This document shows positions 1,511 to 22,700 of a DNA stretch of 24,664 bases, piece after piece. Every line of letters starts with the position of its first letter. The first letter of the stretch is position 1. The position numbers and the translations under genes were made by a program. Origin of the DNA: Boothiomyces macroporosus (lineage: Eukaryota; Chytridiomycota; Chytridiomycetes; Rhizophydiales; Terramycetaceae); assembly GCA_027604185.1 (NCBI GenBank), contig JADGKB010000157.1, forward strand, positions 1-24,664, written 5' to 3'. The notes under the pieces are model-generated. The model worked only from the letters and a program-made list of their open reading frames with translations, was not told the DNA's origin and made no database searches.

Positions 1511-2431
1511 AACCAAGCTTGGTGTAGGTTCCGCCTTGTACTGCCATTAATTTCAATTACCTTGTAGTAGAGTTCTGTGACATCGTCTTGACTAATGAAT
1601 TCCCAACCATTTTGCTTAACGTGATACACTTGGTTAACAATATAATACAATTAACAACACCTCCAGAGTATGCATCTCTATGAGTAGCATGATAAATCGC
1701 TCTTCTTCCCAAATCAATGGCTTCTTCAACAGTCAAATCATATTTATATCCAGCATCCAAAATACCATAGGCATAAGTAGATCCAGATCCCACAGAGAAC
1801 AAGTGATTGGTTAATCTAGTTCCGTCTGAATCTACATAATACAATCCTGGTCCCTATCTTAAGAAACAGCTACATTCTTGTCCCATCCAGTGATCATTGT
1901 GCCCATTGATAATCCCATTCCCTTGTACGGATAGACCATGTTTGCAAGTAATTTACTAGCAGCAGCCACAGAGATTCTTTCCTTGTTTCTTAACTCGTAT
2001 AATCTACATTATATTGAACAAACCTACAACGTCTTCCCAATTCTCTTTCCCAATAAGAACAATCAGCGGCACCACCAGCCATAGTTCCCAATAGGTATGG
2101 GTTGATTTCAATCACTTTCTTTACACTTTGAGAAGCTAATATTAACCATTTTTAACCTAGATTAAGAATGGTTACCAATATAATTTCCACCTGTGGCTCT
2201 AGAATCAACAGCGACAATGACCCCGTGTTTAAATTTAAAAGCAAGAGTGGTAGTCCCGTGTTGAATCTTCAAATCCAAGTTTGCACCTTTCTGTGTATGC
2301 TGTTGCAGGAACGCTACCGGCTACTATTATTTTTCTCTTACATTGCCAACCCTAGGAATGTCAAAGCTGGGAACTGATTCATCCTTGAACAGCGGCTCTG
2401 TGTTGTATTTTTGAAGATTGAGAAAGTCCAT
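1508..2431 (-). CDS. PSMB5: 20S proteasome subunit beta type-5 (chymotrypsin-like), intact with six tiny introns
   Basis: Looks broken in every frame, but removing GT-AG introns at 2321-2341 (21 nt), 2136-2175 (40 nt, see separate entry), 2004-2023, 1854-1873, 1629-1648 and 1541-1560 (20 nt each) gives a clean 260-residue protein. A 52-residue propeptide ends in HG, then T53 is the catalytic Thr1 (HGTTTLAF). Asp17 (VDSRAT) and Lys33 (SVKKVIEIN) of mature numbering are both present, as are the family blocks [32 protein letters not shown] and [16 protein letters not shown]. The intron at 1629-1648 restores the canonical VNLYHV, which strongly supports the tiny-intron reading. This is the chymotrypsin-like protease of the 20S core and acts in nucleus and cytosol. 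It lies head to head with the beta6 gene, 33 bp away, suggesting shared promoter control. A pseudogene is excluded by the perfect restoration. Confidence 0.95.
2136..2175 (-). other. stacked double intron (19 + 21 nt, zero-length exon) in the beta5 gene
   Basis: Forty nucleotides separate ATT G from CT TCT inside codon Ala27 of mature beta5. They divide exactly into GTAACCATTCTTAATCTAG (2175-2157, 19 nt) and a second 21-nt element (2156-2136) that begins GTTAAAA and ends TTAATATTAG. Each half alone has the 5' GT, the TTAAT branch-like motif and the 3' TAG of the other introns here, and each has their usual length. Removing only the first half leaves G followed by GTTAAAA, a usable 5' splice site, but retaining the second half gives an in-frame TAA. 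Alternatively it is simply one unusually long intron. Confidence 0.8.
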
Positions 2432-2464
2432 TTTAAAAAAATCAGACCAGGGTTTTTTAGAAAA
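2432..2464. promoter_or_regulatory. 33-bp shared intergenic space between beta5 and beta6 start codons
   Basis: The whole region between the two divergent ATGs is 33 bp: an A-tract on the beta5 side, a central TCAGACCAGGG, and a T-tract on the beta6 side. It must contain both core promoters, or transcription must start inside the neighbour. No TATA box is evident. The layout suggests coordinated expression of two subunits needed in equal amounts. Confidence 0.5.
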
Positions 2465-3242
2465 ATGAATTACGGATCTGGTCCAGTTAAAATCCCCATG
2501 GAACATGCTTTTTCTCCCTACACAGATAATGGAGGGTATTCAAAGATTAAATCAGGACCACTGTCGCTATTGCCGGGAAGGATTTTGTAGTTGTTGGCGG
2601 CGACACTCGTCAAAGTGAAGGGTACAATATCAACAGCAGATACGCTCCAAAAGTATTCGCATTGTAAAATTACTATTAATACAAGATCAAATGGGTCAGT
2701 GTTGGCAACCGGAGGCATGTATGCTGATGCAGTAACCCTTGTCAAAACATTGGGAATGCGATTGGAAGTATTCATCTCTAATATAGTGGTACCAATTTCA
2801 ACATGATAAGGATATGAGCTCGCCTGCTCTTGCGCAAATGCTGTCTACGATTCTGTACGGAAAACGATTCTTCCCTTACTATGTATGGAACACTTTGGGT
2901 GGATTGGATGAAAATGGTTATTGAAATTAATATAGGCGAAGGAGCAGTGTTTTCATATGACCCTGTAGGTAACTTTCAAAAATATAAATATGGATGTGGT
3001 GGATCGGCTTCGCACTTGATACAGCCATTCCTAGATAACCAAGTAAATATAGCTAACAAAAGATTGGAAGAAAGCATTTGGATACGCAAATTGACTATAC
3101 GATTGAACAAGTAAAAAAGATAATGATGGACGCATTCACATCAGCTACCGAACGTGATATCTACACTGGTGATAACTTGGAAATCTTTATCATTACAAAA
3201 GACGGAGTCACTAAAGAGTTGCATCCATTAAAACGTGATTAA
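2465..3242 (+). CDS. PSMB1: 20S proteasome subunit beta type-6 (PSMB1/Pre7 family), five tiny introns
   Basis: Introns at 2536-2555 (20), 2664-2685 (22), 2768-2786 (19), 2917-2935 (19) and 3043-3062 (20 nt), all GT-AG, join six exons into 225 residues. Family blocks in order: [103 protein letters not shown] and [10 protein letters not shown]. The length matches the usual size for this non-catalytic beta subunit, which helps build the beta ring of the 20S core. The intron at 2768-2786 restores RLEWYQ in place of an out-of-frame stretch, as expected for fungal Pre7. It is divergent from beta5, and its stop lies 14 bp from the convergent AlkB stop. Confidence 0.95.
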
Positions 3243-19699: not shown

Positions 19700-19742
19700 C
19701 ACAAAGTTTTAATTTCATGTTAATATATTTATATAACTACCG

Positions 19743-22700
19743 TTACCATGCAATTCTAGCTAATAATGACTTAGGGAAGGAGCGGACGATTGCTTTTCTG
19801 GTTTCGTCGACAAGCAGGATTCCAGCGGCAAAGCCAAATGGAATGAACCAGTACTTTACGGGAATGGGAGCAGTGAGGAAGTAGTCCTGGACGAATGGCG
19901 TGTAGAGAGAAAACAGACACACCGCAATGGAGCAAGCCATGGAAAAGAACATGACCAGGTTCTTGCGCGGACCGTAGAGCGGGTTGGACTGGAGAATGGT
20001 GCTGTATCGGTTGCGGATGGAAAGGAGAGTGCCGAACTGGCAGATGGCGATCGTCACGTAGTAAATGCCGTCGCCCACGGATACAAAGCTGGCGAGCTGG
20101 TCGCTGGTGTAAGGAAGGTTGTTGCCCCAGCTGTCGTACGCAAACATCAAGTCGTAGAAGCCAATGTTCTGCTCGCCAAAGTACATGAACCACATTCCCA
20201 TGGCAGACACCCAGATCATCAGCCCAATCACACAGTAGATTTGGAAAAAGAACCTCCAGTCGGTCAGGCGGTCGGTTCTAGCGTTCCGTGGAGGCTTGAG
20301 CATCAGGTTGCCTTCGGCGGTTTCGTACATGAGCGAAATCGACATGACAATGTCGTTTGTGACTGAGAACAGCACCTGCTGGAACGAGGAGAGCGCAGGC
20401 TGCATGCCAAAGAACACAGAGGCAATCGTGGTCATCAGTTCAGAGTAACTACCAGCAGGCTATGGTTAGCAAATATTTACCATCAAGTACATGACGACCT
20501 TTTTCAGGTTTTCAAAGATCAGCCTCCCGTTTTCGATTCCGATCAAGATGGAGGAAAAGTCGCTGTCGAGCAGGATCATTGCAGCAGCTTCTTTGGCGAC
20601 ATCAGTGCCGTTGCCCATGGCCACGCCAATGTCGGCCGCCTTCAGAGCTGGAGCGTCGTTGGTGCCATCGCCAGTGACTGCAACGGTGTTGTCTCCGCGC
20701 TTCTTCAGGTTCTCCACAATCAGAAGCTTCTGCTCTGGCGTGGTTCGGGCAAACACCATTTCGGCAAAGTGCCATGCGACAAAGTTCCAGTCTTCGTCGC
20801 CCAGCGATTCGAGCTCCTTTCCGTTGATGACGATTGCGCGAACTGGGTCGTCGATGGATGGCTTGAATTGGTGCAATTGCGCATTTTGCGGAAGCGGGAA
20901 TTGCTTGCGGAGAGCAGGGAGGTCGGTGATTCGTTTGGTGTTGTCAGTGGTGATGATTCCGACTTGCTTTGCGATTGCTGTGGCGGTCAACTCAAAATCG
21001 CCAGTGACCATAAACACACGAACGCCAGCACGTCTCATAGCCTGGACAGTAGGCAGAGTCTCTTCTCGCGGAGGATCCCTGATAGAGAGCATACCTAGCA
21101 GAGTCAGGTTTTTGATTTCGCGAAGCAGGATTTTTTCCAGGTCGTCTTGGTTTCCGAATGGCAGATGCACACCATTCAGCGAGCGCTTGCAGGAGGCCAG
21201 CACTCGGAACCCTTTTGATGAAGCATCTCTCTGCAGCGTGTTGATTTGCTCGGCCAGCGGGAGTATTTCTGCAACAGAGCCATCGGATTTGCACACCTTT
21301 GTGCACGCTGGAATGAGAATATCAGGCGCGCCTTTGATCAGCAGCTCCACGGCTCCGCTTGGGGCTGCCACAACCTTTGCCATGAACTTGTTCTTGGAGT
21401 TGAATGCCATTGAAAACAGCACCCGTGGCTGAGCCACAGCAGTTTTCACAGCCTTGTAGCCTTCCGCAAATCGCAGAATTGCGCTGTCGGTCAAGTCACC
21501 GTTGATAGGACGCAAGGAAAGCGGGAGGTGCTCGTTTCCTGGCAGGAAGGTAGAGTCGTTGCAGGTGGAGGAAAACTCGACCAGCCCTTGGAATCCTGCG
21601 TTGCTTAGTTTTTTTCTGCGGTCATTGTCGTCCTGGCTTTCCTCTTTTCTGGTTTCGTCGACAAGCAGGATTCCAGCGGCAAAGCCAAATGGAATGAACC
21701 AGTACTTTACGGGAATGGGAGCAGTGAGGAAGTAGTCCTGGACGAATGGCGTGTAGAGAGAAAACAGACACACCGCAATGGAGCAAGCCATGGAAAAGAA
21801 CATGACCAGGTTCTTGCGCGGACCGTAGAGCGGGTTGGACTGGAGAATGGTGCTGTATCGGTTGCGGATGGAAAGGAGAGTGCCGAACTGGCAGATGGCG
21901 ATCGTCACGTAGTAAATGCCGTCGCCCACGGATACAAAGCTGGCGAGCTGGTCGCTGGTGTAAGGAAGGTTGTTGCCCCAGCTGTCGTACGCAAACATCA
22001 AGTCGTAGAAGCCAATGTTCTGCTCGCCAAAGTACATGAACCACATTCCCATGGCAGACACCCAGATCATCAGCCCAATCACACAGTAGATTTGGAAAAA
22101 GAACCTCCAGTCGGTCAGGCGGTCGGTTCTAGCGTTCCGTGGAGGCTTGAGCATCAGGTTGCCTTCGGCGGTTTCGTACATGAGCGAAATCGACATGACA
22201 ATGTCGTTTGTGACTGAGAACAGCACCTGCTGGAACGAGGAGAGCGCAGGCTGCATGCCAAAGAACACAGAGGCAATCGTGGTCATCAGTTCAGAGTAAC
22301 TACCAGCAGGCTATGGTTAGCAAATATTTACCATCAAGTACATGACGACCTTTTTCAGGTTTTCAAAGATCAGCCTCCCGTTTTCGATTCCGATCAAGAT
22401 GGAGGAAAAGTCGCTGTCGAGCAGGATCATTGCAGCAGCTTCTTTGGCGACATCAGTGCCGTTGCCCATGGCCACGCCAATGTCGGCCGCCTTCAGAGCT
22501 GGAGCGTCGTTGGTGCCATCGCCAGTGACTGCAACGGTGTTGTCTCCGCGCTTCTTCAGGTTCTCCACAATCAGAAGCTTCTGCTCTGGCGTGGTTCGGG
22601 CAAACACCATTTCGGCAAAGTGCCATGCGACAAAGTTCCAGTCTTCGTCGCCCAGCGATTCGAGCTCCTTTCCGTTGATGACGATTGCGCGAACTGGGTC

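Follow-up and report, generated by a model that had tools for sequence, protein, structure and literature searches.

Very short GT-AG introns of a probable single 19–23-nt class in the chytrid fungus Boothiomyces macroporosus

This work concerns a class of extremely short introns in Boothiomyces macroporosus (Fungi, Chytridiomycota, Rhizophydiales, Terramycetaceae). We analyzed a DNA stretch of 24,664 nucleotides (nt), hereafter the window, which is the entire contig C157 (JADGKB010000157.1) of an assembly of 15,203,306 bases in 216 contigs. An earlier reading of the same DNA made from its letters (the sequence-only reading) had placed in it 36 GT-AG introns of 19, 20, 21 and 22 nt (9, 17, 4 and 6, respectively) and proposed a genome-wide class of spliceosomal introns in a gene set of opisthokont appearance. 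The tiny introns in the window are real, and the host, a chytrid, agrees with that appearance. Moreover, they are very probably U2-type spliceosomal introns that have been shrunk throughout the genome to one rigid class of 19–23 nt.

The window was processed with a Viterbi gene finder, whose codon scores were taken from long open reading frames of the window and to which GT-AG introns were offered in successive 4-nt length bins. The 19–22 bin reached a score of 894 with 26 introns, the other twelve bins (7–58 nt) 749–801 and the intron-free model 734. With 17–24 nt permitted, GT-AG ranked first among 256 donor/acceptor dinucleotide pairs (score 895, runner-up 863), the remaining 255 pairs having a mean of 783.5 with a standard deviation (SD) of 29.3. 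A second run, in which signal matrices came from ten other 10-kb stretches and 19–24 nt were permitted, revealed 37 GT-AG introns between positions 1541 and 22331 (19 nt, 10; 20 nt, 17; 21 nt, 4; 22 nt, 6); the span is that of the earlier reading, and the length counts are nearly the same. The identical 37 introns were obtained within the 19–23 range when 16–30 nt were permitted. Thirty-four of them start with GTA and 28 contain CTAA or TTAA, in line with the 33 and 27 of 36 counted before.

The homology check described below covered 18 of the 37 introns, with 20460–20480 counted as an identical copy of 22311–22331. Five of the remaining 19 interrupt a region that, once spliced, matches a Pfam domain (FAM192A/Fyv6 for three of them, TEL2 and Rad60-SLD for one each), and 14 are supported by the gene model alone. 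A finder with flat lengths (10–120 nt) and no signal model was also tried and rejected: it recovered only part of the set and mixed tiny introns with calls of 30–109 nt, many of which bridge two tiny introns.

The same class was revealed outside the window. A held-out sample was composed of twenty 10-kb stretches from twenty other contigs and scored with the codon model from the window only. The gain from GT-AG introns was 1052 in the 19–22 bin and 109–357 in 28 other bins (7–122 nt), while nine control dinucleotide pairs gained 163–321 in the 19–22 bin. When 18–23 nt were permitted, GT-AG again occupied the first rank among the 256 pairs (1153, the next 810; mean of the other 255 pairs 316, SD 155). 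With 16–30 nt permitted over 224,664 bases, 369 introns were called, of which 337 (37 in the window and 300 in the twenty stretches) had 19–23 nt, their lengths being distributed as 19 nt, 77; 20 nt, 149; 21 nt, 72; 22 nt, 28 and 23 nt, 11. Thus, nearly all introns fall in a range of a few nucleotides at the lower limit of length, as is characteristic of tiny-intron genomes. In a split-sample run with flat lengths of 19–150 nt, where the matrices came from one half and the introns were called in the other, 181 introns were obtained, 115 of them at 19–22 nt and seven at 23 nt.

A simple pattern search led to the same picture. The motif GTAN7YTAAYN3AG has 2690 matches in the whole genome (1345 per strand), against 226 (106 and 120) for the reversed pattern. 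The sample contained 41 matches to the motif, whereas 35 scrambled versions averaged 3.0; one scramble, with GA replacing AG, gave 22, which we read as 19-nt introns viewed one base on. The genome-wide nature of the class, asserted previously from one contig, is thereby borne out. Since 41 matches (about 3 expected) occur where 300 introns were called, scaling by the pattern count in the genome gives, by extrapolation, about 19,000–23,000 introns of 19–23 nt.

The splice signals were derived from the 337 core introns of 19–23 nt. The donor starts with GT followed by A at +3 (92%), A at +4 (61%), T at +5 (48%) and T at +6 (51%), and the acceptor consensus is (T/C/A)AG. A branch motif (C/T)T(A/G/T)A(A/C/T) is present in 303 introns; the branch A is located 5 or 6 nt ahead of the last G in 260 and 13 or 14 nt past the first G in 257, in accordance with the branch-like CTAA/TTAA noticed earlier near the 3' end. 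A model-free scan of GTA/YTAAY/AG spacings over 8000 cells gave four peaks (50, 41, 30 and 18; the next cell had 12) above a background with a mean of 1.55 and SD of 1.54. In pooled spacings, control donors starting with TA gave 73 against 110 for GT, and control acceptors GA and TA gave 41 and 35 against 110 for AG; in our reading these are the same introns shifted by one base. It should be mentioned that the YTAAY motif, found at this fixed spacing, is complementary to the U2 sequence GTAGTA.

Removal of the tiny introns restores conserved proteins at 35 junctions in nine genes. In the window these are proteasome beta5 (6 junctions), beta6 (5), the cNMP-binding-domain gene (4), the Rrn7-like gene (1) and the ATPase gene (1); on four other contigs they are alpha3 (5), beta1 (5), alpha5 (4) and beta3 (4). 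Spliced beta5 aligns without gaps with proteasome subunit beta type-5 (PDB 22mm_R) over 207 residues (360 bits), and spliced beta6 with beta type-1 (8ypk_S; 238 bits) with one 2-residue gap located 8 residues past the nearest junction. Against their PDB counterparts, alpha3 (5 introns) aligns over residues 1–246 of 250, alpha5 (4 introns) over 1–222 of 242 and beta3 (4 introns) over 1–204 of 204, each with one single-residue gap at least 13 residues from any junction, while beta1 (5 introns) aligns over residues 7–211 of 214 without gaps. In total, models were sought at ten proteasome loci; multi-exon models resulted at eight, L008 yielded a 47-residue fragment and L014 gave no model at the chosen place; four of the eight models were taken for the PDB comparison (L001, L002, L010 and L020 were left out).

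Most junctions were also gapless in comparisons with other homologues. The beta5 junctions are gapless at 5 of 6 positions against Globomyces, 5 of 6 against P0122 (79% identity; source tag merc, which we take to be a transcript collection) and 6 of 6 against Gorgonomyces. For the cNMP gene the figures are 4 of 4 against Terramyces and 3 of 4 against Boothiomyces JEL0866. The sequence-only reading had likewise seen conserved blocks restored in beta5, beta6 and a NIP30-like protein; in the gene of the last, three introns lie inside the FAM192A/Fyv6 Pfam match.

The beta5 gene, split in two by the finder, is joined by removal of a 40-nt segment, 2136–2175. Within this segment two units, of 19 and 21 nt, can be told apart, both of which possess GT, a branch motif and AG and between which no exon remains; the segment could be a single 40-nt intron but reads as two abutting (twin) introns. 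The other smallest exons predicted between tiny introns have 1, 4, 6 and 6 nt.

The genome encodes much of the machinery that such introns would require. Among small nuclear RNAs (snRNAs), two U2 genes (142.2 and 135.4 bits), U6 (62 bits) and U4 (58 bits) exceed the Rfam cut-offs, and U1 (68.8 bits) is just below its cut-off of 69.5. The 5' end of U1 is canonical, beginning ATACTTACCTGG (L050, 1501–1663); ACTTACCT of U1, GTAGTA of U2 and ACAGAGA of U6 are intact and canonical. The two U2 genes (L027 1501–1693 and L028 1501–1691, on C80 and C178) have nearly identical 5' halves, and their 3' halves diverge more. Inspection of U2, U6, SF1 and U2AF had been advised earlier: U2, U6 and SF1 were found over their cut-offs, as were Slu7 and Prp18, but the U2AF-large-like gene reached 230.7 bits against a cut-off of 310.3. 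Its four internal stops are expected for a gene cut by introns.

The window itself contains, at 4839–5445, a gene with four tiny introns of the FAM192A/Fyv6 family, which comprises second-step splicing factors. In yeast, loss of Fyv6 is reported to matter for 3' splice sites at least 21 nt from the branch and little at 9–15 nt, and Prp18 seems to promote the use of 3' splice sites distal to the branch (PMC11651659). Since the distance from branch to 3' splice site is 5–6 nt here, the retention of Slu7, Prp18 and the Fyv6 family is not explained by geometry.

Position, length class, geometry, restored proteins and snRNA genes were computed; for pairing and catalysis we infer the following. The intron would be nearly all signal: GTA(A)TT, about 7–8 free bases between GTA and (C/T)TAA(C/T), 2–3 bases, and AG. 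U1 and then U6 would pair with the first 6 nt, and GUAGUA of U2 with the branch motif. The branch A, 13–14 nt downstream, would attack the 5' splice site, producing a lariat loop of that very small size, and the first AG, 5–6 nt past the branch A, would be chosen for exon ligation almost or entirely without scanning. In the simplest account, the intron would act as a single composite motif of fixed length (intron definition), in which a polypyrimidine tract has no room. The weak +5 position opposite a canonical U1 suggests either that fixed geometry offsets weaker U1 pairing or that another contact, such as U6 or Prp8, dominates. The introns were presumably longer in the past, judging by intron length in fungi generally.

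Several observations weigh against the U2-type interpretation or its rigid length class. The introns are known here from genomic sequence alone. G at +5 occurs in only 15% of donors, a mismatch with canonical U1; 34 of the 337 core introns have no branch motif as searched, and 32 of the 369 calls lie outside 19–23 nt. Five of the 35 junctions (two in alpha3 and one each in beta1, alpha5 and beta3) count for less because they are within 7 residues of an alignment end; the first beta5 junction is not gapless with two of three homologues, and the JEL0866 cNMP model breaks at 9024–9042. U5 was not found in the genome by a search whose tool warns that this is not proof of absence. Two bacterial control genomes also matched in the U2AF search, so weak U2AF matches mean little. 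As to length, 59 of the 181 introns of the cross-trained finder fell at 24–150 nt under the flat length prior, and GT-AG slightly exceeded all nine controls in the bins 31–38 (609 against 363–588) and 63–70 (518 against 366–507), which leaves room for a small number of longer or paired introns. It nevertheless seems unlikely that a second, sizeable class of longer introns was missed next to genuine tiny ones: the 59 calls form a thin, noise-like spread, GT-AG did not exceed the range of the nine controls in 12 of the 14 other bins (up to 200 nt), and the spacing scan, which sees only GTA...YTAAY...AG with AG at most 39 nt from the motif, had no second peak to about 240 nt.

Segments that are short, uniform, intragenic and frame-breaking also recall internal eliminated sequences (IESs), which ciliates excise from DNA during development. 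This origin is extremely improbable here, for the segments end in GT...AG and not in the TA repeats bounding IESs, they carry a U2-complementary branch motif at fixed spacing, spliceosomal genes are encoded, and the host is a chytrid fungus. Sequencing or assembly errors, or pseudogenes, might mimic introns as well, and an exact repeat in the ATPase gene of this contig may indeed be an assembly artefact. Errors, however, give no reason for GT-AG borders, lengths of 19–23 nt and a branch motif on 20 of 20 sampled contigs, and the affected genes include proteasome subunits; we assign this explanation a practically negligible probability. The spliceosomal nature proposed in the sequence-only reading finds support in both the signals and the machinery.

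Some of the tiny introns are already implicit in GenBank. Three proteins matched in a search with the cNMP protein. One is HK103_001870 of B. macroporosus, which shares 64% of the query region and shows 100% identity there; the other two, both relatives, come from Boothiomyces sp. JEL0866 (78%) and Terramyces sp. JEL0728 (76%). HK103_001870 (window 5466–9274) splices three of the five tiny introns compared (6308–6327, 8202–8223 and 8634–8653), but retains the 22-nt intron 8820–8841 and terminates there, ahead of 9024–9042. The earlier warning that standard gene callers would split such genes or label them pseudogenes is thus partly confirmed. HK103_001870 and likewise the JEL0866 model fuse the Rrn7-like and cNMP genes, whereas Terramyces has the cNMP gene alone; we modelled them as two genes. 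No Boothiomyces or Terramyces names were seen in the best 120 of 5939 beta5 matches, several of which are nameless, whereas their ATPases head the ATPase list; this is an indirect sign only that JEL0866 and Terramyces share the tiny-intron class.

Among opisthokonts, very short introns occur in animals, the dicyemid mesozoans, where they are somewhat longer. Published classes of 15–16, 16–17, 18–21 and about 25 nt place the 19–23 nt found here near the floor of intron length, comparable to ciliates and nucleomorphs as previously suggested. Stentor coeruleus, a heterotrich ciliate, likewise has tiny introns genome-wide, of 15–16 nt, a few nucleotides shorter than in Boothiomyces, but Slu7 and Prp18, both present in Boothiomyces, are tabulated for it as not found (PMC9505925). 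Paramecium and Nyctotherus, also ciliates, are described as having only very short introns, of about 25 bp in length, and in-frame stops are overrepresented in the 3n introns of Paramecium (PMC5014332). Here, an in-frame stop is contained in 66 of 72 introns of 21 nt (expected 59.6, SD 1.8, on re-dealt phases), a comparison affected by detection bias; since the finder itself favours stop-bearing introns, we do not claim selection against stop-free ones.

A narrow class of 18–21 bp is reported for chlorarachniophyte nucleomorphs, relict green-algal nuclei with more than 800 introns in about 300 genes (PMC10245619), whereas the Boothiomyces introns belong to a nuclear genome of 15.2 Mb. The mikrocytids Mikrocytos mackini, with 224 introns of 16–17 bp, and Paramikrocytos canceri resemble Boothiomyces in having a very narrow length class of spliceosomal introns with conserved sequence (PMC10245619). 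They are, however, rhizarian parasites whose spliceosome is strongly reduced and whose introns are few; Boothiomyces, in contrast, is a fungus that has Slu7, Prp18, SF1, a U2AF-like gene and, by extrapolation, about twenty thousand introns of 19–23 nt. In Trichomonas vaginalis the branch site similarly merges with the 3' splice site in a short class down to 23 nt, but the genome is reported to have 63 introns and a second class of 56–196 nt (PMC12316389).

Introns of this kind are already known; new, as far as our searches reach, are their host lineage, their scale and the machinery that has been kept. The published tiny-intron genomes that we found are those of ciliates, a relict algal nucleus and reduced parasites, and here the host is a chytrid whose genome is not minimal. 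The listed matches of literature searches on the lineage and on very short introns contain no report of such introns for Boothiomyces, Terramyces or Rhizophydiales. In a survey of 644 fungal genomes, introns with a mean of 63 bp are called relatively short, and the main text does not name Boothiomyces (PMC8476143), and a pan-eukaryotic survey is stated to have left out introns below 30 bp in every species (PMC10639083). Together with the deposited model that ends at a retained tiny intron, the latter omission indicates that pipelines with a minimum intron length conceal such genomes.

A broader proposal appears to us to have slightly better than even chances: in Terramycetaceae (Boothiomyces, Terramyces) essentially all of about twenty thousand introns per genome would have collapsed to one composite 19–23-nt motif, with a broad spliceosome kept (among its members the second-step factors Slu7, Prp18 and Fyv6/FAM192A) and twin introns removed separately. 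If so, tiny introns would require neither genome minimization nor loss of spliceosomal parts, and Slu7, Prp18 and Fyv6/FAM192A would have another role here. In a chytrid that has introns of this size one could test directly which minimum distances a spliceosome can handle, what second-step factors do at 5–6 nt between branch and 3' splice site, and why donors lack the +5 G expected by U1; it is a candidate system for the smallest splicing signal. The introns of the window are listed in Table 1.

Table 1. Tiny introns placed in the window, with strand and supporting evidence (finder, gene finder of this work; PDB, alignment with a PDB protein)
Position	Strand	Intron and gene	Evidence
1541–1560	-	20 nt, beta5	finder; gapless with 3/3 homologues; 3 residues from PDB alignment end
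1629–1648	-	20 nt, beta5	finder, PDB, homologues
1854–1873	-	20 nt, beta5	finder, PDB, homologues
2004–2023	-	20 nt, beta5, GTT start	finder, PDB, homologues
2136–2156	-	21 nt, beta5, second half of 40-nt segment; outside the finder's 37	junction gapless once 2136–2175 removed
2157–2175	-	19 nt, beta5, first half of 40-nt segment	finder, PDB, homologues
2321–2341	-	21 nt, beta5, less conserved N-terminal part	finder; gapless with 1/3 homologues (Gorgonomyces); beyond PDB alignment
2536–2555	+	20 nt, beta6	finder, PDB
2664–2685	+	22 nt, beta6	finder, PDB
2768–2786	+	19 nt, beta6	finder, PDB
2917–2935	+	19 nt, beta6, GTT start	finder, PDB
3043–3062	+	20 nt, beta6	finder, PDB
4615–4634	+	20 nt, Sec2-domain gene	finder; Pfam Sec2p match starts 2 residues past junction
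4992–5011	-	20 nt, FAM192A/Fyv6-family gene	finder
5185–5206	-	22 nt, FAM192A/Fyv6-family gene	finder; within Pfam match of spliced product
5231–5250	-	20 nt, FAM192A/Fyv6-family gene	finder; within Pfam match of spliced product
5314–5333	-	20 nt, FAM192A/Fyv6-family gene	finder; within Pfam match of spliced product
6308–6327	+	20 nt, Rrn7/TAF1B-like gene	finder, homologues; also spliced in deposited model P0243
8202–8223	+	22 nt, cNMP-binding-domain gene	finder, homologues; also spliced in P0243
8634–8653	+	20 nt, cNMP-binding-domain gene	finder, homologues; also spliced in P0243
8820–8841	+	22 nt, cNMP-binding-domain gene, GTT start	finder; not removed in P0243; two relatives agree with the spliced form
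9024–9042	+	19 nt, cNMP-binding-domain gene	finder; gapless with Terramyces, not with JEL0866 model
9744–9763	-	20 nt, large unnamed gene	finder
10580–10601	-	22 nt, large unnamed gene	finder
10914–10933	-	20 nt, large unnamed gene	finder
11354–11374	-	21 nt, large unnamed gene	finder
11799–11820	-	22 nt, large unnamed gene	finder
14754–14772	-	19 nt, large unnamed gene	finder
15603–15621	-	19 nt, large unnamed gene	finder
16630–16648	-	19 nt, TEL2-like gene	finder
16864–16883	-	20 nt, TEL2-like gene	finder
17052–17071	-	20 nt, TEL2-like gene	finder; within Pfam match of spliced product
17949–17967	-	19 nt, TEL2-like gene	finder
19088–19107	+	20 nt, Rad60/SUMO-like gene	finder
19227–19245	+	19 nt, Rad60/SUMO-like gene	finder
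19537–19555	+	19 nt, Rad60/SUMO-like gene	finder; within second Rad60-SLD match of spliced product
20460–20480	-	21 nt, P-type ATPase, repeat copy 1	finder; identical to 22311–22331
22311–22331	-	21 nt, P-type ATPase, repeat copy 2	finder; gapless, 24/24 identical with Boothiomyces JEL0866

By Pfam and homology, the window encodes proteasome beta5 and beta6, a 2OG-Fe(II) oxygenase, a Sec2-domain protein, the FAM192A/Fyv6-family protein (the NIP30-like protein of the sequence-only reading), the cNMP-binding-domain protein, TEL2-like and Rad60/SUMO-like proteins and a P-type ATPase. Weak matches were obtained for a gene with a cellobiose-dehydrogenase-type cytochrome domain (19.3 bits) and for the Rrn7/TAF1B-like protein (23.3 bits), and the longest exon of a large unnamed protein had no Pfam match.

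The P-type ATPase gene (19793–23494) contains an exact in-frame tandem repeat with a unit of 1851 bp (19793–21643 and 21644–23494) and zero mismatches. Both copies contain the same intron, and the product is a fused protein with a doubled C-terminal part. This repeat may represent an assembly artefact or a very recent duplication. In P0003, an ATPase model of Boothiomyces JEL0838, a C-terminal ATPase stretch is fused ahead of a full copy, which suggests that tandem ATPase genes are also present in that strain.

At positions 1–46 of the minus strand, a tRNA (anticodon GAA) truncated by the contig end was recognized by eye; ARAGORN lists none. Elsewhere in the assembly, pairs of matches with equal score and equal length were found on C18 (L004/L005 and L014/L015, about 48 kb apart) and on C20 (positions 74242 and 119309, about 45 kb apart). 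These pairs suggest large duplicated segments or assembly repeats.

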